Shown here piece after piece: positions 2,387 through 12,048 of a stretch of 64,000 bases of DNA. The position numbers and the translations under genes are program-made. The notes beneath the pieces are model-generated. The model did not search any database, had not been told where the DNA came from, and worked only from the letters and a program-made list of their open reading frames with translations. Position 1 is the first letter of the stretch. Every line of letters starts with the position of its first letter. This stretch comes from Shimia aestuarii (GTDB lineage Bacteria > Pseudomonadota > Alphaproteobacteria > Rhodobacterales > Rhodobacteraceae), in the NCBI RefSeq assembly GCF_022814865.1, contig NZ_JAKVRD010000020.1:1-64000 (forward strand), written 5' to 3'.

Positions 2387-3073
2387 CTAGCATTCGATCA
2401 CCACGTCATGAATGCTCGGATCGATCCGGCGCACCACGGCCAACACGCGGCTCATCAGGTGGGTTTTCACATATGACGCGTGGAACCGTGACGGCGCCAT
2501 CAGATGCAGCCGCCCTGCCCCAACGCCAGCCTCGCTCAGCCCATGGAACCAGGCGCCATAAACCGCCGGGTCGATCTGATGCAGCTCCTTTTGCACCTCG
2601 GACCAAAGCGAGCCATCGGCCACAGGGCTGCGCGCAGGTGTATGCAGCGGCACCACGTTGTCAGGGGTCGGGTTCTGAGACGGCTGGTCAGGCGTCAACC
2701 GGTCAATGAAATCCGGGCCGATATGGCTCCAGACGTGCCGCGTATCCTCAAGCATCAGTTCCAGGTCCAGTCCATAGACACTGACCCTGCCCCGCGCGCC
2801 CTGGCGCTTCAGAACCAGCCAGCCTTTGGCGCGCAGCTTGGCCATTTCGCGTTTGACGGTACGGGTGTCGACGGACCATAGACGGGCGATGTCCTCTTGA
2901 CCCATGGACAGCTCGTCTCGTTGCCAGTTGTAGCGGGTCGTGATCAGGGCCATCATTCGCATGACCTGCCGCTGAATCGTCCGGTCCTCAGACAGCGCAA
3001 AGGCCATTAGCGCAGACAAGATGTCGTATTTGCGACTGGCCGCCTCGCGTCCCACTGGCTTTGCGATCTGCAT
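2387..3073 (-). CDS. DnaA-like plasmid replication initiator
   Basis: The 228-residue protein begins at an ATG preceded by AAGGAG eight bases upstream; a longer frame to 3211 exists, but this site decides the start. Residues 1-110 look like a winged-helix DNA-binding module (KYDILSALMAFAL; DIARLWSVDTRTVKREMAKL). The C-terminal quarter, from about residue 155, has the pattern WSEVQKEL...DPAVYGAWF...LHLMAPSRFHASYVKTHL, which resembles the N-terminal interaction domain of chromosomal DnaA. That combination is known from the 'DnaA-like' replication systems of Rhodobacterales plasmids. It lies next to parAB, transcribed away from them, as in other such replicons. It probably opens the origin and recruits helicase; the origin is likely in the adjoining 3074-3588 gap. 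Confidence 0.8.
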   Translation of the reverse strand: MQIAKPVGREAASRKYDILSALMAFALSEDRTIQRQVMRMMALITTRYNWQRDELSMGQEDIARLWSVDTRTVKREMAKLRAKGWLVLKRQGARGRVSVYGLDLELMLEDTRHVWSHIGPDFIDRLTPDQPSQNPTPDNVVPLHTPARSPVADGSLWSEVQKELHQIDPAVYGAWFHGLSEAGVGAGRLHLMAPSRFHASYVKTHLMSRVLAVVRRIDPSIHDVVIEC

Positions 3074-3306
3074 CGCATTCTCCTTTGCCTGCCCGTCGCA
3101 TCTTGGTGATGCGTTCCGGGTCCGTATATCCGTGGATGTTACCGACGGTGTATCTGCCTCAAAATCAGTAAACGGCGCGCGCTTCCAACGCTCTTTACCA
3201 ATCTTCGCCAATTTGCGTCCAGAACTTCGATTCTGTCAAGGGCGGTTCCGGGGCGGGGTGTTTCTCTAATCCTTATTTCGAAAGAAAGAAGAGGTTCTAT
3301 GGTTAT

Positions 3307-3478: not shown

Positions 3479-3494
3479 CTTCCCCGCGGGGAAG
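3479..3494. promoter_or_regulatory. parS-like palindrome 1 (upstream of parA)
   Basis: Perfect 16-bp palindrome CTTCCCCGCGGGGAAG about 95 bases before the parA start. Identical copies occur at 4572-4587, 4987-5002 and at the core of 6053-6076. Repetition of one perfect palindrome only around parAB is the expected signature of a ParB binding site (centromere). Confidence 0.75.
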
Positions 3495-3588
3495 GTTAAG
3501 GACATTAAATCTTTTCTTTGCCATTTCGGCAAATCCGTCGTATTTGCGGAATGAGGCAGTTTTTACGTTCAGTTCTAAGGAGGCACTC

Positions 3589-4884
3589 ATGTACACCCAC
3601 GAAGACCTCGCGCGGTTGCAGGCGCAGTCGCTCAAGATGCAAAGCTGGATAAGGCAGCAGACCTTCAGCCCAGAGAACACCAAGCGGCTGCGGCGGTTCT
3701 CCAGCTGGGAGGTGTCCGAGCTGATCCTGGGCATCAACCAGTCCACCTTTCGTGGGCGACTGGCGGCCGAGCCGAACCTTCCTGGCGGGGAAGTCGAACC
3801 CGATGGTCGCCAGCGTTGGTTCAGCCTGGAGGAGATCAACGAGTTGCGCCGCCGGATGAAGGTCAACCGCAAGTCGCTGATGCCGCCGCGCCCCGCTGGC
3901 AAGCGCGCCTTTCGTGCGGCCGTTGCCAACTTCAAGGGCGGCTCTGGCAAGTCCACCGTCGCCTTGCACCTGGCACATGCCGCCGCGCTGGATGGCTATC
4001 GTGTGCTGGTGGTTGACTTTGATCCGCAAGCGACGCTGTCCCACTCGATGGGGCTATCCGACGTGGCCGAAGACTATACCGTCTGGGGCATCATGGCGCG
4101 TGACCTGATCCGGGAAACCGACCGCATGAACGCCGCCGTAACCGGGGCCGCCAGCGGGGCCGCCCTGCCCCAGCGCCGCATCCCCACCTCGATCCGGGAC
4201 ATGGGGCTAGAGAACCTGCGCACGCCGGACTTCATCAAGCCGACCGCCTGGTCCACGATCGACATCATTCCCAGCTGTGCCAACGCCGCCTTTGTCGAGT
4301 TTGCCAGCGCCCAGTACCGCCACCTGAACCCGGAATGGTCGTTCTTTGCAGCGGTGTCGCGCTATCTCGATACGCTGAACGATGACGACTATGATCTGAT
4401 CCTGTTCGACTGCCCGCCGGCGATTGGGTATCAGTCGATGAATGCGGTCTTTGCTGCGGACATGCTGTATGTGCCGTCGGGCCCTGGTTATTGGGAGTAT
4501 GACTCGACCACCAGCTTTATCGGTCAGCTGTCCGAAGCGCTGGAGGATCTGAGCCACGGGTTCGACGCGACCTTCCCCGCGGGGAAGATTGGCCTGCCTA
4601 AGGCCTTTGCCGACATTCGGTTTGTCATGACCCGGTTCGAGCCGGGCAACGAATTGCACCGCGCGATGCTCGAGGCGTTTCGTAAGGTCTTTGGCGATCA
4701 TGTAACAGAGCACCCGATCGAGATGACTCGCGCGGTCGAACAGTCCGGCCGCTTCCTTTCGTCGGTGTATGAGATCGACTATCGCGACATGACCCGCGAA
4801 ACCTGGCGCCGTGCACGTGCGACCTTTGATCGGGGGTACGACGAATTCAAAGCCTCGGTCGTGCAGGCCTGGGACAAGATTTAA
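3589..4884 (+). CDS. parA: ParA/RepA-type partition ATPase
   Basis: The 431-residue protein starts at an ATG preceded by TAAGGAGG; the longer frame from 3388 lacks a good site. Residues 1-95 form an N-terminal DNA-binding region with a MerR/HTH-like segment (RFSSWEVSELILGI), typical of large type Ia ParA. The deviant Walker A motif KGGSGKST is at residues 116-123, the A' motif VVDFDPQATLS follows, and the Walker B region reads LILFDCPPAIG. ParA ATPase moves ParB-parS complexes on the nucleoid and usually autoregulates the operon. Two parS-type sites are inside the gene: a perfect one encoding TFPAGK (residues 328-333) and a degenerate one encoding LPGGE (residues 64-69). parB follows after ten bases, so the two are co-transcribed. 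Confidence 0.92.
   Translation: MYTHEDLARLQAQSLKMQSWIRQQTFSPENTKRLRRFSSWEVSELILGINQSTFRGRLAAEPNLPGGEVEPDGRQRWFSLEEINELRRRMKVNRKSLMPPRPAGKRAFRAAVANFKGGSGKSTVALHLAHAAALDGYRVLVVDFDPQATLSHSMGLSDVAEDYTVWGIMARDLIRETDRMNAAVTGAASGAALPQRRIPTSIRDMGLENLRTPDFIKPTAWSTIDIIPSCANAAFVEFASAQYRHLNPEWSFFAAVSRYLDTLNDDDYDLILFDCPPAIGYQSMNAVFAADMLYVPSGPGYWEYDSTTSFIGQLSEALEDLSHGFDATFPAGKIGLPKAFADIRFVMTRFEPGNELHRAMLEAFRKVFGDHVTEHPIEMTRAVEQSGRFLSSVYEIDYRDMTRETWRRARATFDRGYDEFKASVVQAWDKI
3778..3793. promoter_or_regulatory. degenerate parS-like site inside parA
   Basis: CTTCCTGGCGGGGAAG differs from the perfect 16-bp palindrome at two central positions. It lies in the parA coding sequence. It may be a decayed or weak ParB site. 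Confidence 0.45.
4572..4587. promoter_or_regulatory. parS-like palindrome 2 (inside parA)
   Basis: Perfect CTTCCCCGCGGGGAAG within the 3' third of parA, read in the parA frame as Phe-Pro-Ala-Gly-Lys. The same pentapeptide appears in ParB where palindrome 3 lies in the same frame phase, which suggests that the DNA motif, not the peptide, is what is conserved. Confidence 0.75.
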
Positions 4885-4894
4885 GGAGACATTC

Positions 4895-6028
4895 ATGAGC
4901 CGCAAACGCCGCATGTTCGATATCTCGATGCCCGATGACCTGCCCGACGACTTGCCCGATCCCAGCGCCGAGCCAGCCACCGAAACCTTCCCCGCGGGGA
5001 AGGAGGACCGCCCTGCCCGGCGCGGCCCGATGGCCACCGCGATCAGCGAAACCGCTGGCGCTGCGCGTGAGCGTCAACAGGTGGAGGCGCAGATCCGCGC
5101 CGAGAACGACGCCCTTGCGCACGAGCATGTCCGGTTGAAAAAGCTGGGCCTCGTGCTCGAGGTGCTGCCGCTGGACGCCGTGGAAACCTACAAGCTGACG
5201 CGCGACCGGGCCCCCGGCCCCGACCCCGAACTGGACGAGCTGAAGCAGTCGATTCAGGACATCGGTCTGTCCAACCCTATCCGGGTCGAACCGCGCGAGG
5301 ATGGCAAGTTCGAGCTGATCCAGGGCTTTCGGCGGCTCTCGGCCTATCGCGCGCTGTACGAGGAAACAGACGATGATCTCTGGGCCCGCATCCCGGCGGC
5401 GATCACGCCGCGCGGGGATAGCCTGGAATCGCTCTATCGCCGCATGGTCGACGAAAACATGGTCCGCAAGGACATCTCCTTTGCCGAGATGGCCAAGCTG
5501 GCCGTGGACTATGCCGCCGAACCTGGCACACAGGAAACCGACCCGGACAAGGCTGTGGCCGTTCTGTTCAAGTCGGCGGGTTATCAGAAACGCTCGTATA
5601 TCCGCACCTTCATCAAGGTGATCGGGCGGATCGGTGGGGCGCTGATCTACCCGCACGAGATCCCCCGTGCCCTCGGGTTAGCGCTGGCCCAACAACTTGA
5701 TCAGGACCCCGCGCTGGCTGGTCATATTCGCAGTGATCTCGAGGGCTGGGAGAACCGCTCGGTTATGGATGAGCTGGGCGTGCTGCGTCGTGCGGCGGGG
5801 CTGGGCGCGGTCCAGGACGGGCAGGGGGTGCAGACCGCCGCGCCCAAGCCCAAAGCCCCCGCCGCAGGCAAGGCCAAGACCAGTTTTCAGCTGGAGCGAC
5901 GCGAGGGCAGGGCGAAATGCACCGCGGCCTCGGGTCGGTTGGAAATCCGCCTGAATCGCGATTTCACCACCATCGACCGGCGTAAGCTGGAACAGGCGGT
6001 GCAGCAGATGCTGGACAATCTTGACTAA
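4895..6028 (+). CDS. parB: ParB/RepB-type partition protein
   Basis: The 377-residue protein starts at an ATG whose ribosome site TAAGGAGA overlaps the parA stop. Residues 1-60 are a variable acidic N-terminus that contains TFPAGK, encoded by a parS-like palindrome. The ParB/Srx nuclease-like domain follows, with SIQDIGLSNPIRVEPR and the conserved LIQGFRRLSAYRAL (the 'GxRR' CTP-binding motif). A central helix-turn-helix region (KDISFAEMAKLAV) and a C-terminal dimerisation segment complete it. ParB binds parS, spreads as a CTP-dependent clamp and stimulates ParA. Its operon position and the nearby repeated palindromes support this role on the plasmid. Confidence 0.9.
   Translation: MSRKRRMFDISMPDDLPDDLPDPSAEPATETFPAGKEDRPARRGPMATAISETAGAARERQQVEAQIRAENDALAHEHVRLKKLGLVLEVLPLDAVETYKLTRDRAPGPDPELDELKQSIQDIGLSNPIRVEPREDGKFELIQGFRRLSAYRALYEETDDDLWARIPAAITPRGDSLESLYRRMVDENMVRKDISFAEMAKLAVDYAAEPGTQETDPDKAVAVLFKSAGYQKRSYIRTFIKVIGRIGGALIYPHEIPRALGLALAQQLDQDPALAGHIRSDLEGWENRSVMDELGVLRRAAGLGAVQDGQGVQTAAPKPKAPAAGKAKTSFQLERREGRAKCTAASGRLEIRLNRDFTTIDRRKLEQAVQQMLDNLD
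4986..5003. promoter_or_regulatory. parS-like palindrome 3 (inside parB)
   Basis: Perfect 18-bp palindrome CCTTCCCCGCGGGGAAGG at codons 31-36 of parB, containing the same 16-bp core as the other sites. Confidence 0.75.
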
Positions 6029-6052
6029 ACCCGCCCTCTGCCTGAACTGAAC

Positions 6053-6076
6053 AGACCTTCCCCGCGGGGAAGGTCT
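6053..6076. promoter_or_regulatory. parS-like palindrome 4, possible parAB terminator
   Basis: A perfect 24-bp palindrome starts 25 bases after the parB stop; its central 16 bases are the shared CTTCCCCGCGGGGAAG core. As RNA it would fold into a long GC-rich stem followed by TTTGCATTTTG. It could therefore serve both as a ParB site and as a weak transcription terminator between the convergent parB and recombinase genes. Confidence 0.7.
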
Positions 6077-6100: not shown

Positions 6101-7264
6101 CTACAACCCTGCGGCCCTGGTCAGGTTCACGCGGAACCTGTCGCGGCGACGCTGGTAGCGGCGGGTCATTTCGGCGCTGGCGTGGCCCAGATGCTTTTGT
6201 ACGAAACGCTCGTCCACCTGGGCCGCGCTGGCCAGTCCGGCACGCAAGGAATGGCCCGAGAACAGCGCCAGGCGGGCCTTCTTGGGCAGGTCGGATCGGA
6301 TGCCCGCATCCAGGACGGTACGCTTGACCAGGCGGGCGACATGTTTGTCGCACAGCCGGTTTTCAAGCGCGCGATTGCCATCTCGCGAGGTGCGCACAAA
6401 GACCGGACCAAAGTCGATTTTGGCAAAGCGCAGCCATTGTTCGAGGGCATGGACAGGGCAGGTCTGGTCAGTGGACCCACGCCCGATTTCGACCTCTCGC
6501 CAACCGGTCTTTGCGTTCAGCGTCAGCACCGCGCCATCGTCGAAGATCTCGATCCAACCACCGCTGTCTGGCGCACGGACGCCGTGTTCGATATCATCCT
6601 TACCGACATCAAGGCTGACGATTTCCGAGCGCCTGAGACCACCGGCATATCCCAGAAGTAGAATCGCTCTGTCGCGTAGCCCACGCAGGTCGAACCCCAG
6701 GGTGCCGACCATGGCGAGGATATCCTCGGGCAGGATGGCGTGTTTCTGCACCGGCGGACGCCCATGCTTGCGCTTGATTCCGGCCAGCACGGTGGCGATG
6801 TGACGATCTTTGCGGTCGAGTGCGAACCCACGTTGTGCGTAGTTCCAGGCGAGACCGGACAGGCGGCGATCTATGGTGCTGACCGACAGGGGCCGGGACG
6901 CCGACTGGGGTCCGAACGCGGACTTCGAAGGGAAAGGGCCCGATCCTGAGGCCAGGTCCGCGAGATATAGCCCGATCAACTCAGGTGACGGGGGGAGGGG
7001 CTCTGTTCCTTTCAGGCGGCACCAGCGGGTGAAGTGTTTCCAATCGGCGGCATAGGCCTTGTTGGTGTTCTCGGCCGTCGAAGCTCTCGCATAGTCGCGA
7101 GCTGTATCAACCAGCCGATCCAAGGTCCCGGAACCGGGCACATGAGAGGGAAGGGTGATCTCCTCTCTGTCTGGGCGATCTCGCTCGTTGTCCTCGTCGA
7201 TGGAAGACCCGTTTGGTGGCTCTGAGCTCGATTTCTCGTGGTTTTCCGACATGTCGTTGAGCAT
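6101..7264 (-). CDS. tyrosine site-specific recombinase (integrase/Xer-like)
   Basis: The protein (about 387 residues from the chosen start; the frame is open to 7288) has a SAM-like N-terminal core-binding domain (RASTAENTNKAYAADWKHF) and a C-terminal catalytic domain. The catalytic residues are visible: Arg in GGLRRSEIVSLD, a Lys-containing beta hairpin (LNAKTGWREVEIG), HSLRAG, then GHASAEMTRRYQ with the nucleophilic Tyr. This kind of enzyme resolves plasmid multimers or moves elements. It sits beside the partition genes, which favours dimer resolution. I place the start at 7264 or 7252 because a longer form would overlap an inverted repeat (7273-7301) that looks like its own recombination site. 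No clear ribosome site decides the start. Confidence 0.85.
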   Translation of the reverse strand: MLNDMSENHEKSSSEPPNGSSIDEDNERDRPDREEITLPSHVPGSGTLDRLVDTARDYARASTAENTNKAYAADWKHFTRWCRLKGTEPLPPSPELIGLYLADLASGSGPFPSKSAFGPQSASRPLSVSTIDRRLSGLAWNYAQRGFALDRKDRHIATVLAGIKRKHGRPPVQKHAILPEDILAMVGTLGFDLRGLRDRAILLLGYAGGLRRSEIVSLDVGKDDIEHGVRAPDSGGWIEIFDDGAVLTLNAKTGWREVEIGRGSTDQTCPVHALEQWLRFAKIDFGPVFVRTSRDGNRALENRLCDKHVARLVKRTVLDAGIRSDLPKKARLALFSGHSLRAGLASAAQVDERFVQKHLGHASAEMTRRYQRRRDRFRVNLTRAAGL

Positions 7265-7377: not shown

Positions 7378-8256
7378 ATGACATATGCCCGCGGCGACTT
7401 CGATACCCTACCCAGAATGCCCTCCTGGGTCACCTCGGCGCGGGCCGAAGCCCTTGAAGATGTGGCCTTTTTGTCAGGGGCGGCGTTGAGCCACCTGCAT
7501 CTTGTGGTGGAGCGTGAAGAGGTGCCCCAGAGCTTGTTTCGTGAGAGGCTGGCGCTGCGTGCCGCGGAGGCCTGCGTTGCGCATTCCGGACGCCCTGAAA
7601 GGGCCGCGGATTTGCGGGATGCAGTTCATTTGCTGCGCCCCGGGGATTTGCCTGGTCCGGCCGGGGAGAGCTACTTGGCTTGGCGACGCGCGGTGGAGCG
7701 GCCGGCCTCGGTCAAGGCGTTGCATCGGGCGCTGCCCAACTTTGAGGCCGGGCAAATTGCCGGATGGCTGGATGCGGGGCAGGGCGCGCCGGTCATTTGG
7801 GCCGCTGAGGTGCTGGACACCGTTCTGACCGAGGCCCCGCGTCGGGAATTGCCGGCGTTGGTCCTTGCGGATGCTGCCTTGGCCCACGCGTTGGGTTGGG
7901 ATCATCTGGTACCGCTTCTGGCCGCGGGTCTGAAACGTGCCGATCTGCGCAAGCGGGGCGAGGTTTTGCGGTTGGCTTGTCATCGTGCCGTAGTCTCTTC
8001 GACTAAAGAGTCGTCGCGACTGGCCACGGATCTTGCCCGCAGGGCGGGGCGGTTGACTGCGGTTGCACCAAAACTACGGGCTAAGGGGGCGGGGGAGGCT
8101 GTCGAGATATTTATGAGCCGTGACGCGGTGACGCCGACAGCGCTCACCTCGTTGAATTCAGATCGGGCCGCGCGTAGGTTCTGCGACCGCTTGGTCGAAT
8201 TGGGTGCGGTACGTGAGTTGACCGGGCGCGACACCTTCCGGTTCTACGGGGTCTGA
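7378..8256 (+). CDS. DUF1403 family protein
   Basis: This 292-residue, Ala/Leu-rich, mostly helical protein matches the plasmid family DUF1403 in character: an N-terminal WVTSARAEALEDVAFLSGAAL segment, then RERLALRAAEACV and helical repeats. The C-terminal 35 residues (SDRAARRFCDRLVELGAVRE...FRFYGV) look like a small winged helix. No enzymatic motif is visible. The gene ends three bases before scpB and is certainly co-transcribed with it, a pairing also seen on rhizobial plasmids. I infer a role in plasmid DNA organisation or segregation; the biochemical function of the family is not known to me. Confidence 0.75.
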   Translation: MTYARGDFDTLPRMPSWVTSARAEALEDVAFLSGAALSHLHLVVEREEVPQSLFRERLALRAAEACVAHSGRPERAADLRDAVHLLRPGDLPGPAGESYLAWRRAVERPASVKALHRALPNFEAGQIAGWLDAGQGAPVIWAAEVLDTVLTEAPRRELPALVLADAALAHALGWDHLVPLLAAGLKRADLRKRGEVLRLACHRAVVSSTKESSRLATDLARRAGRLTAVAPKLRAKGAGEAVEIFMSRDAVTPTALTSLNSDRAARRFCDRLVELGAVRELTGRDTFRFYGV

Positions 8257-8259
8257 ACT

Positions 8260-8853
8260 ATGGCCAAGGATTGCTCCGAACCCGATCTGGATAGAGAGCT
8301 CGAGGACCTGCCACGCGATCTACGCTGGCGCGAATGGATGCGCAGGATCGAAGCGGTTCTCTTTGCCTCTGCCTCACCAGTTCCGCGCGAAGACCTGGCC
8401 CTCGTGGTGGGGCAGGGCGCCTCGATCGACCTGCTGGTCGATGACCTCGCTGCCGATCTAGAGGGCCGGGCCTTCGAAATCGCCGAGGTGACGGGCGGCT
8501 GGATGTTTCGGACGCGGGCCGCGTATGCTCCTGCGATCCGCGCGGCGGCGGATGTGGGAGAGCAGGTTCTGGACCTGAATGAGTTCGACGTCGCGGTGCT
8601 TGCGGCCATCGCTTATCACCAGCCGATCACACGGGATGGTTTGAAAGACATCTTCGGCAAGGAAATCAGCCGCGACCTGATCGGACGTTTGCACGCACGT
8701 GGTCTGATCAGCACCGGGCCCCGCGCGCCCAAACGTGGCGCGCCCTACACTTTCGTGACCACTGAGCAGTTTCTAGTCGCCTTCGGACTGGAGAGCTTGC
8801 GTGACCTACCGGATCGGGAACAGCTTGAGGATGCGGGAGTCTCGGCAGCGTAG
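8260..8853 (+). CDS. scpB: plasmid ScpB-like segregation/condensation protein
   Basis: The 197-residue protein carries the ScpB double winged-helix pattern: RRIEAVLFASASPVPREDLA at residues 28-47, then EIAEVTGGWMFRTRAAY, and the second domain with EFDVAVLAAIAYHQPITRDG and RLHARGLISTGPR ending in FLVAFGLESLRDLPD. Chromosomal ScpB is the winged-helix partner of kleisin ScpA and SMC in bacterial condensin. No ScpA or SMC gene is in the window; the tightly linked DUF1403 gene occupies the place where scpA would be expected. The plasmid copy may form a plasmid-specific complex or interact with the host SMC-ScpA. Confidence 0.85.
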   Translation: MAKDCSEPDLDRELEDLPRDLRWREWMRRIEAVLFASASPVPREDLALVVGQGASIDLLVDDLAADLEGRAFEIAEVTGGWMFRTRAAYAPAIRAAADVGEQVLDLNEFDVAVLAAIAYHQPITRDGLKDIFGKEISRDLIGRLHARGLISTGPRAPKRGAPYTFVTTEQFLVAFGLESLRDLPDREQLEDAGVSAA

Positions 8854-8886: not shown

Positions 8887-9450
8887 TTATCGCCATGCTG
8901 CCGCTTTTGCTCTTTTCAACGCCCCAGTCATGTTGAGCCGCATCCGCATGAGTTGTTCGCTTACACCGTATCTCGTTGCCGCAACACCAAGGGGCATGCG
9001 CTGGCGCGCAATAATTACCGCCGCTGGCTGTGGCACAAGTAGTGTTGGTCCCAGCCAATGCGCTTCCTCTTCGTCTCGGGCATTGAAGGTTCTGACACCG
9101 GAACTGTCTTCGAGGGGCAAAGGGATGTGATGCAGAAGGCCATGTGCTAGTTCATGAGCTAGATCGGCTGTTTGTCGCGGCTTTTCGTGACCGTCGTTGA
9201 GTATGACGAGCCTGGCGCCGCTTTTGTGGATTGTCACAGCCGAGAAGCCGTTTGCCCCTGTGCAACGCCGAAGACGCGCAACTTCTAGCGGGTGCTCTTC
9301 CTCAAAGGCAGAGAGATCAACTACCTTGTGATCCATTTTTTGGGCGAGACTCCAAGGGCACAGAGGATCCGTTTTCGCCAGATTGAGTTCTTGACGAACA
9401 TCCTGTGCGAACCACTCTGCATCGGTTTTGAAGCCTCGCCGTAGTGCCAT
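8887..9450 (-). CDS. ImmA/IrrE family metallopeptidase
   Basis: The 187-residue protein has the zinc-protease motif HELAH (in TADLAHELAHGLLHH) and a downstream acidic residue in DEEEAHWLGPTLLVPQ, the ImmA/IrrE (DUF955) arrangement. A helix-turn-helix-like segment (LGVAATRYGVSEQLMRMRL) follows. These peptidases usually cleave or antagonise a partner XRE repressor, as ImmA does with ImmR. The upstream XRE gene stop overlaps this start (TAATG), so the pair is translationally coupled. Likely role: stress- or invasion-induced derepression of a nearby promoter, or a toxin-antitoxin-like module. Confidence 0.88.
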   Translation of the reverse strand: MALRRGFKTDAEWFAQDVRQELNLAKTDPLCPWSLAQKMDHKVVDLSAFEEEHPLEVARLRRCTGANGFSAVTIHKSGARLVILNDGHEKPRQTADLAHELAHGLLHHIPLPLEDSSGVRTFNARDEEEAHWLGPTLLVPQPAAVIIARQRMPLGVAATRYGVSEQLMRMRLNMTGALKRAKAAAWR

Positions 9451-9806
9451 TAGTGAGCTCTCAGTCCTTCATAGGCGGACTGAATGATCCGCTCCAAGGC
9501 ATCCGCCTGTTCCTTCCCGAGATTGGGATCCGCTCGGAAAAGCATGAGTGCCTTGGTCAAGGAAGATGCTTCGTCATCGGTGTTGGCGCCAGGTTCTCGC
9601 ATAAAGTCATCAGCGCTAAGTTTCGCCCAAGCGCAGAGCGACGCCAAACTATCGACGTCCGGCCGCTTTCCTTGTGAGATACGGGTGAGTGATGAAGCGC
9701 TCACGCTCGACTGCTCCGCGACCTTTCTCCAGGTGAGCTTCCTTTCCTCCCTTACCGCGTCCAACGCGGAATAGAAGCTGCTCCCGTCGAATTGCACATT
9801 AGGCAT
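9450..9806 (-). CDS. XRE-family regulator paired with ImmA-like peptidase
   Basis: The protein has 118 residues from the ATG at 9806. The helix-turn-helix reads ERKLTWRKVAEQSSVSASSL followed by TRISQGKRPDVDSLASLCAW, a standard Cro/CI-type domain. The remainder is a short helical tail likely to contact the peptidase. Upstream on the same strand, an 11-codon frame (9831-9799) with a good GGGAG site ends seven bases inside this gene, so translation may be coupled through a leader. The gene is probably autoregulated and the target of the ImmA-like enzyme. Confidence 0.85.
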   Translation of the reverse strand: MPNVQFDGSSFYSALDAVREERKLTWRKVAEQSSVSASSLTRISQGKRPDVDSLASLCAWAKLSADDFMREPGANTDDEASSLTKALMLFRADPNLGKEQADALERIIQSAYEGLRAH

Positions 9807-10068
9807 AATGTTCGACTCTTGCAATTTTCATGTTGACTCCCTTCGTGTGGTTTGAGAATTTCATTATAGCAACGCTGTTGCGAGTCCGTAAAGGCAAGAC
9901 GCTGCGGCAAAAAGGAACGCGTCAAAATGAGGAAGAGCATCGAAGACGATCTGAAGGCCATCGGCGCGGGGCTTGACGTTGGTGTTCTGCCGACTGTGTT
10001 CAACCGAGGGGTCATACGGCCCGAGACCTCTACGGTTGCCTTGAAATCTTCGGGCCAGGAGAAAGCCT

Positions 10069-11195: not shown

Positions 11196-11510
11196 ATGTT
11201 GGCATTTGAGGATAGCACTGTCGCTATCGACGAGCCCAAGAGCGCTCGGCTTGAAGCGCGCACGCAGCCTTCGGTGAAGGACGCGATCAGCCGTGCTGCG
11301 ACCTTGAGCGGCGTAGAGGTGAGTTCCTTTGTTGTGAGTGCCGCATACAAGGCCGCGCAGACGACAATCGAAGCGCACAAGGTGACAGTTTTGGAGAGTG
11401 AAGCGGATCGTGCCGCTTTCTTTGGTGCTCTCGAGAATCCGCCGCAGCCGAATGACCGGCTGAAGCAGGCTTTTGCGTTGCGTGAGAAGCTAATCACGAA
11501 TGCCGACTGA
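11196..11510 (+). CDS. TacA-type (DUF1778) antitoxin
   Basis: The 104-residue protein starts after AAGGAGG. It shows the DUF1778 layout: an N-terminal ribbon-helix-helix (RLEARTQPSVKDAISRAATL, then SGVEVSSFVVSAAYKAA) and a C-terminal toxin-neutralising tail with FFGALENPPQPNDRLKQAF, the 'F...L..PP.P...L' motif typical of the family. It would bind its GNAT toxin and repress the operon by binding the palindromes at 11084-11132. The toxin start codon lies inside the last codons of this gene, ensuring coupled translation. Confidence 0.9.
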   Translation: MLAFEDSTVAIDEPKSARLEARTQPSVKDAISRAATLSGVEVSSFVVSAAYKAAQTTIEAHKVTVLESEADRAAFFGALENPPQPNDRLKQAFALREKLITNAD

Positions 11511-12048
11511 CGCCGCCGTCGAAGCCAAATACACAATCGAGCCGTTCGATCCCAAGACACAGGACCGAGCGGCTTTCTCTTGTGGCGTGCTACAGATCGA
11601 CAATTACCTCAAGCTCACAGCAAAAAAGGGCTCCAAGGCGGATGTAATCCGCGTCTGGGTCGTGCTGGACGATGAGCGCCATATCGTTGGGTTCTATGGC
11701 ATCAACATGCATTCCGTTGCCGCGGACGAAATGCCGGAAGCCTTAGCCAAAAAGGCACCCCGACACGGAGCTTTGCCGACCGCATTCATTTCGATGATCG
11801 GCGTTGACAAATCAATGCAGGGGCAGGGTCTAGGGAGTGCATTACTTGCTGATGCGCTCAGTCGCATCGGGCGTGTTTCAGACGAGATCGGGACCTGCGC
11901 AGTTCTGCTTGATGTCTTCGACTGCGGCAATCCCGAAACCGTCGCGCGGCGGAAAACCTACTACGAGTCCTTCGGGTTCATACCGCTGCCTGATCAGCCG
12001 CTGCGCCTGTTCATGCCAATACAGACCGTGAGAGCGCTGTCCGGCTGA
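11500..12048 (+). CDS. TacT-type GNAT acetyltransferase toxin
   Basis: The 182-residue protein has the GNAT fold pattern of TacT toxins: FSCGVLQIDNYLK near residue 27, the acetyl-CoA loop MIGVDKSMQGQGLGSALLAD (the Q/RxxGxG/A motif, here QGQGLG), and a C-terminal YYESFGFIPLPDQPLRLFMP with the conserved tyrosine and the 'FGF' strand. TacT-type toxins acetylate the amino group of aminoacylated tRNA and stop translation. Its start overlaps the antitoxin gene by 11 bases. Such modules stabilise plasmids by post-segregational killing. Confidence 0.9.
   Translation: MPTDAAVEAKYTIEPFDPKTQDRAAFSCGVLQIDNYLKLTAKKGSKADVIRVWVVLDDERHIVGFYGINMHSVAADEMPEALAKKAPRHGALPTAFISMIGVDKSMQGQGLGSALLADALSRIGRVSDEIGTCAVLLDVFDCGNPETVARRKTYYESFGFIPLPDQPLRLFMPIQTVRALSG

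Follow-up and report, generated by a model that had tools for sequence, protein, structure and literature searches.

The window analysed here, comprising bases 1-64000 of a 66,769-base contig in the draft assembly (3,972,025 bases; 3.97 Mb) of Shimia aestuarii, harbours a replication and partition locus made up of a DnaA-like rep gene and the partition genes parA and parB (Table 1). Spread over this locus are copies of a 16-mer palindrome, CTTCCCCGCGGGGAAG, at positions 3479, 4572, 4987 and 6057, the last lying within a perfect palindrome of 24 bp. We consider it highly probable that these palindromes are the plasmid's own parS sites, read by its ParB, and that the copies lying inside genes are under selection at the DNA level and switch together with ParB specificity.

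Table 1. Genes and putative parS copies of the partition locus (window coordinates)
Feature	Position	Strand	Remarks
rep, DnaA-like replication protein (DnaA_N domain)	2387..3103	-	ORF open to TTG at 3211; Pfam DnaA_N 30.4 bits (cut-off 24.6)
Putative parS copy 1	3479..3494	.	Intergenic, ~100 bp 5′ of parA; upstream copy (0-1 mismatches) in 62/91 typed set-1 loci
parA, ParA ATPase	3589..4884	+	Pfam AAA_31 4.8e-26, CbiA 1.2e-18; N-terminal helical part in AlphaFold2 model
Putative degenerate parS copy in parA (+197)	3778..3793	.	Two mismatches; encodes LPGGE; position conserved among relatives
Putative parS copy in parA (+991)	4572..4587	.	Encodes FPAGK, residues 329-333, within loop 325-341
parB	4895..6028	+	Predicted recognition helix 230-249; residues Y230 Q231
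Putative parS copy in parB N-terminal tail	4987..5002	.	Encodes FPAGK, residues 32-36; palindrome extends to 18 bp, 4986-5003
Putative parS copy in 24-bp palindrome	6053..6076	.	Intergenic, 24 bases 3′ of parB stop codon, then TTTG; also terminator-like
Tyrosine recombinase gene	at 6101, 3′ of 24-bp palindrome	-	Adjoins parB
DUF1403 gene, then scpB	7378-8853		Beyond recombinase, near partition genes

The replicon and its palindromes

Judged on its sequence, the combination of rep, parA and parB is a DnaA-like (type I) plasmid replicon. The Rep protein is weakly DnaA-like and has no match in NCBIfam, its gene is divergent from parAB, and the ParB is nearer to the type I than to the type II references. 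The window proteins did not reach the RepABC models (TIGR03453, 208.7 against a cut-off of 348.45; TIGR03454, 38.8 against 201.5), and an opposite-strand recombinase gene stands 3′ of parB in place of the repC required of a RepABC operon. Three components of a type I ParABS system are present: a ParA-type Walker ATPase, a ParB with the ParB_N (CTPase) fold and a predicted helix-turn-helix, and repeated palindromes at the locus. Against ParB_N the ParB scored 24.2 bits, just below the cut-off of 26.3. A profile search of PDB sequences with this protein retrieved Noc (9.2e-9), covering only profile positions 79-191, and in a Foldseek search with the ParB model chains of Noc, ParB and KorB ranked first by E-value (Noc 1.4e-7; KorB 1.5e-6), with low whole-length TM-scores of 0.2-0.4. 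Residues G144, R146, R147 and A150 of ParB are invariant, and the model alone places the helices of the helix-turn-helix at 217-224 and 230-249. The modelled N-terminal helical part of ParA may also form a helix-turn-helix.

A first-pass annotation of the window had described four identical palindromes and a two-mismatch copy at 3778, and a motif search recovered exactly these: CTTCCCCGCGGGGAAG has five matches with up to three mismatches, compared with a mean of 0.50 and a maximum of three in dinucleotide shuffles, none of 100 of which reached five. The list of open reading frames agrees with that annotation in placing the copies at 4572 (parA) and 4987 (parB), both translated as FPAGK, and the one at 3778 (parA, LPGGE) in coding DNA. 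Its remark that no other full copy exists in the window holds also for the entire draft assembly, where neither CTTCCCCGCGGGGAAG nor TTCCCC-N2-GGGGAA has an additional exact match; copies elsewhere on the chromosome, set in advance as counting against parS sites, were not found in exact form.

Related loci and their typing

A ParB search (E up to 1e-40) found matches in 100 of 394 genomes of the family, at 106 places. Three sets of loci, labelled here by L numbers, were assembled. Set 1 contains 106 loci, namely 105 fetched places and the window. Set 2 holds the 80 best-ranked among 481 relatives in genome_contigs; these are closely related to the window, and some are apparently records already present in set 1. 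Set 3 has 78 loci: 76 of 103 places in genomes absent from set 1 (17 as given and 59 chosen for spread), a second locus of a set-1 genome (L312) and L256. At least four of its loci (L283, L286, L295 and L297) are apparently set-2 records, and it shares many genera with set 1, being held-out but not unrelated. The type of a locus was taken as the most repeated 7-base half-site around parAB (score of at least 5), the middle two bases being left free and ParB information unused.

Two clades emerged. Seven set-1 loci (L104-L110) form clade II, with ParBs that are 32-37% identical to the window ParB and separate on the tree, and 91 of the 99 set-1 loci of clade I, that of the window, were typable. 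The species and plasmid sizes of L318 and L256 within the window clade fit named DnaA-like-I plasmids, those of Phaeobacter gallaeciensis and Leisingera caerulea, as given in the accessible portions of PMC4148982 and PMC3910702, and these two loci are inferred to be type I from plasmid size and species. The Sulfitobacter indolifex plasmid pDSM14862_d (L317), classed as DnaA-like-II in the portion of PMC9025767 available, was matched by a far-clade ParB, carries K230 M231 and has one palindrome, after parB. The rep/parAB layout is common to the window, L318, L256 and this type II reference, and therefore does not separate the types.

Fixed positions inside parA and parB

The parA codons that carry the window copy at 4572 hold a palindrome throughout much of set 1: among its 100 alignable parA genes (106 loci), 64 have seven of seven half-site pairs at this point and 21 have six of seven, whilst seven of the remaining 15 belong to clade II. 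Copies with at most one mismatch at this site (parA +991) occur in 77 of 91, 75 of 79 and 51 of 61 typed clade-I loci of sets 1, 2 and 3, respectively. This site is used most often in sets 1 and 3, set 2 being led by the parB N-terminus (77 against 75). The position of the window copy at 3778 (parA +197) bears copies with 0-1 mismatches in 12/91, 65/79 and 6/61 typed loci of the three sets, and palindromes recur also at the parB N-terminus, at parB 440-570, in parB after 830, upstream of parA and just after parB. With 0-1 mismatches allowed, 158 of 320 clade-I copies in set 1, 227 of 346 in set 2 and 109 of 243 in set 3 lie inside genes. Typed clade-II copies lie 3′ of parB, 12 of 12 in six set-1 loci and 27 of 28 in 13 set-3 loci. 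Separately, arrays of 6 to 9 TGTCCCC palindromes, ~50-180 bp apart and beyond the usual few, were observed 3′ of parB in five loci (L089, L245, L252, L256 and L265).

At the parA site the encoded peptide varies with the half-site: CTTCCCC gives FPAGK or FPTGK, TGTCCCC gives VPAGT, CTTATCC gives LSADK, CTTACCC gives LPTGK, LPMGK or LPAGK, GTTCCCC gives FPAGN and TTTCCCC mostly FPAGK. An extra half-site type, CTTTTCC, was seen in Pseudorhodobacter aquimaris (L217) at parA +991, at parB +67 and after parB, with Y and S at ParB residues 230 and 231.

The first-pass annotation had held that the coding copies sit where ParA and ParB do not need them, and the modelled structures concur, in that these regions look dispensable. 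In the AlphaFold2 models the +991 site falls in a loop of ParA (325-341; pLDDT ~65-76) and the +197 site in a turn that follows helix 51-60, and the site at the parB N-terminus belongs to a tail whose pLDDT is ~50. Of the set-1 in-gene copies with at most one mismatch, 90 of 94 in parA and 49 of 62 in parB are on loops, compared with 39% and 37% of all windows, although 77 of the 94 parA copies represent one homologous site and these counts are therefore not independent.

Probable selection on the DNA

Very probably, on the evidence of codon usage and sequence comparison, the in-gene copies are selected as DNA. Seventy-one set-1 loci have a perfect non-coding copy, and their parA and parB genes together contain 87 perfect copies of that type; shuffling synonymous codons 40 times gave a mean of 0.9 and a maximum of three (the type was chosen from all copies, a non-coding copy then being required). 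A codon-entropy scan that is blind to palindromes, run on set 2 together with the window (79 and 81 rows), found its lowest values at residues 329-333 of parA and 31-36 of parB. The second lowest window of parA was 63-67, with a small lead over the next, at 191. Since residues 63-67 are the place of the copy at 3778, that copy, described in the first-pass annotation as decayed, marks a true site: its two mismatches stand, but it is no stray remnant, lying at a second conserved position. Wherever the in-gene sites have a glycine, its codon is GGG (78/78 and 79/79 rows). Furthermore, the half-site at parA +991 equals the non-coding palindrome of its own locus in 49 of the 51 loci where both are perfect, compared with a mean of 11.9 and a maximum of 21 under random pairing; in the two exceptions, L044 and L102, the sole non-coding palindrome is of no known type.

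ParB residue 230 and palindrome type

Among 346 ParB, 405 ParA and 219 Rep columns, ParB column 230 carries the most information on palindrome type, with an excess of 1.36 bits over 90 typed rows, the next ParB column reaching 0.93. This residue is the first of the second helix in the predicted helix-turn-helix. In leave-one-out prediction it gives the outer triplet in 87 of 90 rows (97%), compared with 83%, 79% and 75% for the next best column of ParB, ParA and Rep, respectively. In set 1, Y goes with CTT (42/42), R with TGT or CGT (33/34), P or A with TTT (10/10) and K with GTT (4/4), and all 79 typed loci of set 2 pair Y230 with CTT. When the rule fixed on set 1 was applied to set 3, the outer triplet was right in 69 of the 70 loci where it is applicable; ten of these 70 are clade II (K230 M231, GTA), and a further four loci were untyped and four without a rule. 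Six additional named plasmids also fit, one of which (L317) has a single copy. The adjacent residue 231 follows base 5, Q with C and T, S or V with A, in 58 of 58 cases in set 3. That palindrome type tracks the first residue of the predicted recognition helix of ParB supports the identification of the palindromes as parS made in the first-pass annotation.

The history of these changes was followed on two trees, one of set 1, built without ParB residues 216-261, and one of 149 clade-I rows from sets 1 and 3, less three long-branch rows. On well-supported branches the first gave four (R), three (P/A) and two (Y) independent pairs for residue 230 and the second two each for R, K, P/A and Y, none of them in the opposite direction.

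A number of observations weigh against this interpretation. The switches are few, with 11 changes of the outer triplet and nine of residue 230 on the set-1 tree and seven and eight on the 149-row tree, some set-1 pairings leave one of the four R pairs without a difference, and no sign test on the residue-230 pairs reaches 0.05. One lineage breaks the residue-230 rule, namely L099, which has R with GTT, and L240 of the same genus, the single miss in set 3. Eight of the 99 clade-I loci of set 1 have no repeated palindrome under the typing rule, although five of them (L037, L087, L088, L098 and L115) keep six of seven pairs at the parA site. ParA residue 54 likewise covaries with type. The rule for residue 231 is broken by L117 and L118 in set 1 and by two set-2 loci, and of the 149 rows two break it and three carry residues without a rule; its independent pairs mostly do not differ, and ParA column 396 predicts base 5 as well (98%, against 97% for ParB 231). 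As base 5 changed only two to three times on the trees, the rule for residue 231 is downgraded from strong to weak. The case for residue 230 is one of structure, column ranking and prediction combined, and not of the number of independent switches.

Alternative explanations

The palindromes might be operators read by the N-terminal helix-turn-helix of ParA itself, in autorepression, or by the DnaA-like Rep. The upstream copy does sit between rep and parA, as suits such a reader, and residue 54, within helix 51-60 of the model, is the most informative ParA column (0.73). However, ParA residues 50, 53 and 55 are constant, and 51, 52 and 56 vary in few rows (S52N in five of nine TTTCCCC rows), although the palindrome changes, and the best ParA and Rep columns fall well behind the 97% of ParB 230 for the outer triplet. 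Column information and leave-one-out prediction led us to reject ParA or Rep as reader of the variable bases, and the operator explanation as a whole appears very unlikely. Slightly less credible still is a role in mRNA or as transcription terminators in place of protein sites. The 3′ copy (6053-6076) is terminator-like, and a run of at least four T follows 19 of 102 first downstream copies, but such runs also occur on the opposite side (7 of 102 first downstream and 23 of 186 parA copies), which makes the signal weak. No such run stands behind any of the 365 perfect copies located upstream, in parA or in parB, a terminator scan found five against 3.0 (sd 1.9) in shuffles and hence not above chance, and an RNA role leaves the link to the ParB helix unexplained. 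As a weak extra, the last copy may serve both as a terminator and as a protein site.

Recombination sites for multimer resolution, used by the tyrosine recombinase encoded beside parB, are a further candidate, to which we give hardly any weight. The recombinase gene lies 3′ of the 24-bp palindrome, a relative is present at 37 of 252 loci, and a tyrosine recombinase occupies the equivalent place in R. pomeroyi. Nevertheless, 215 of the 252 fetched loci show no relative, though many stretches stop 1-3 kb after parB, and the type of the palindrome follows the ParB helix. Xer-type sites have an asymmetric centre, which also counts against the proposal, and it was rejected on the presence of a recombinase relative in just 37 of the 252 loci. 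Least probable of all, to the point of being negligible, is that a conserved peptide written in GC-rich codons gives rise to the in-gene copies incidentally. The codons are indeed rich in GC, and FPAGK is a frequent peptide, but the 87 copies observed against 0.9 in synonymous shuffles are, for the family as a whole, already contrary to this, the peptide changes with the palindrome and the glycine codon is always GGG. Chance or codon bias as the source of the palindromes was ruled out by the dinucleotide and synonymous shuffles together with the codon-entropy scan.

A model for the partition locus

Taken together, the conservation of position, the agreement of coding with non-coding copies, the constraint on synonymous codons and the association with residue 230 lead us to predict that the palindromes are parS sites read by this ParB. 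Each parS would be composed of two 7-base half-sites flanking two free middle bases (NNNNNCC-N2-GGNNNNN across the family), with the ParB recognition helix that starts at residue 230 reading each half-site and ParB presumably loading there. Loading, spreading and repression are known behaviours of ParB. CTP-dependent loading and spreading would build a partition complex over the protein's own operon, to be moved by ParA, and the centromere would be the whole group of copies that flank parAB or lie within it, spanning 2.6 kb in the window. The in-gene codons would be held by selection on the DNA, in a loop of ParA and in the disordered tail of ParB, and the upstream and in-gene copies would also damp parAB transcription through spreading ParB. 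For the coupling to autoregulation suggested in the first-pass annotation, the upstream copy (3479) offered no promoter-like match. Tentatively, and with a little more doubt than belief, we propose an overprinted centromere with a readable code, its specificity being written in ParB residue 230 (helped by 231), in the non-coding palindromes and in the codons of parA and parB.

Relation to known partition systems

In DnaA-like plasmids of Rhodobacterales, Petersen et al. (2011) are said to have found a DnaA-like Rep beside parAB and conserved module palindromes as likely centromeric anchors, and to have named two compatibility groups. In contrast to these two groups, the window clade, with its references L318 and L256, has at least six half-site types, with in-gene copies at constant codon positions and an association with ParB residue 230.

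Several parS palindromes also lie at the partition genes of repABC replicons, some at the 5′ end of repB (Rhizobiales) or within following open reading frames such as cas genes; the accessible part of that source (PMC9040568) describes no conserved codon site within the ParA gene, which in the window clade is the commonest place in two of the three locus sets. RepABC compatibility groups have group-specific 14-nt palindromes whose type corresponds to the partition proteins, groups 1 and 2 being separated by a single reciprocal base exchange, and the portion of the report available (PMC5613091) gives no residue-to-base rule, whereas in the window clade residue 230 gives the outer bases. For chromosomal ParB and Noc, four residues at the protein-DNA interface set the site, according to the mutants and crystals in the accessible part of PMC7383237, whilst the evidence for the window clade is natural plasmid diversity only. 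The presence of parS inside genes is thus already known, as are, reportedly, palindromes in the DnaA-like replicon type. As far as the literature was searched, two features are new: sites that keep their place within the genes while the peptide changes in step with the palindrome, and the simple residue-230 rule. No paper was found that reports the core CCCCGCGGGG in these plasmids, or a parS site at a constant codon position of parA, a weak negative as subscription journals were thinly covered.

Compatibility

The suggestion in the first-pass annotation that the palindromes determine incompatibility was not borne out. In the ParB search of 394 genomes, no genome had two clade-I ParBs, whatever their parS type, and six had one clade-I and one far ParB. 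In the set-3 search, eight of the 135 matched genomes had two matches, the second being in every case a far ParB (33-35% identical to that query). From 99 carriers in 394 genomes, a Poisson estimate made by hand would expect ~13 genomes with two, the counts being based on four or five scored candidates per genome and many draft assemblies. As clade-I plasmids of different types were not met in one genome, parS type alone does not seem to set compatibility, and these counts are suggestive of the replication protein or origin as the main barrier.

Neighbouring genes

Relatives of the DUF1403 and ScpB proteins lie around parAB in nine and four, respectively, of the 252 fetched loci. At 878-2030, a DUF6088/AbiEi-like gene (+) faces an AbiEii C-terminal part (-), perhaps a rearranged remnant of a type IV toxin-antitoxin system. 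Two possible maintenance modules lie near the replicon: a helix-turn-helix gene with an IrrE-like M78 peptidase gene at 8887-9824 (-), and a TacA-like antitoxin with a GNAT acetyltransferase at 11196-12048 (+).

Implications

Across many genera, these plasmids would keep a centromere at set codon positions within the partition genes that serve it, and silent changes there can be tested singly. If the overprinting model is correct, a change of centromere type would require matched changes of the DNA and of two proteins, and overprinting would lock parA, parB and parS together as a unit resistant to exchange piece by piece; the centromere type of hundreds of plasmids would then be readable from ParB alone. 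A replicon type at present regarded as a single compatibility group may carry several centromere types. The natural series of centromere switches with matched ParB changes would also provide a test bed for the evolution of ParB-parS specificity.

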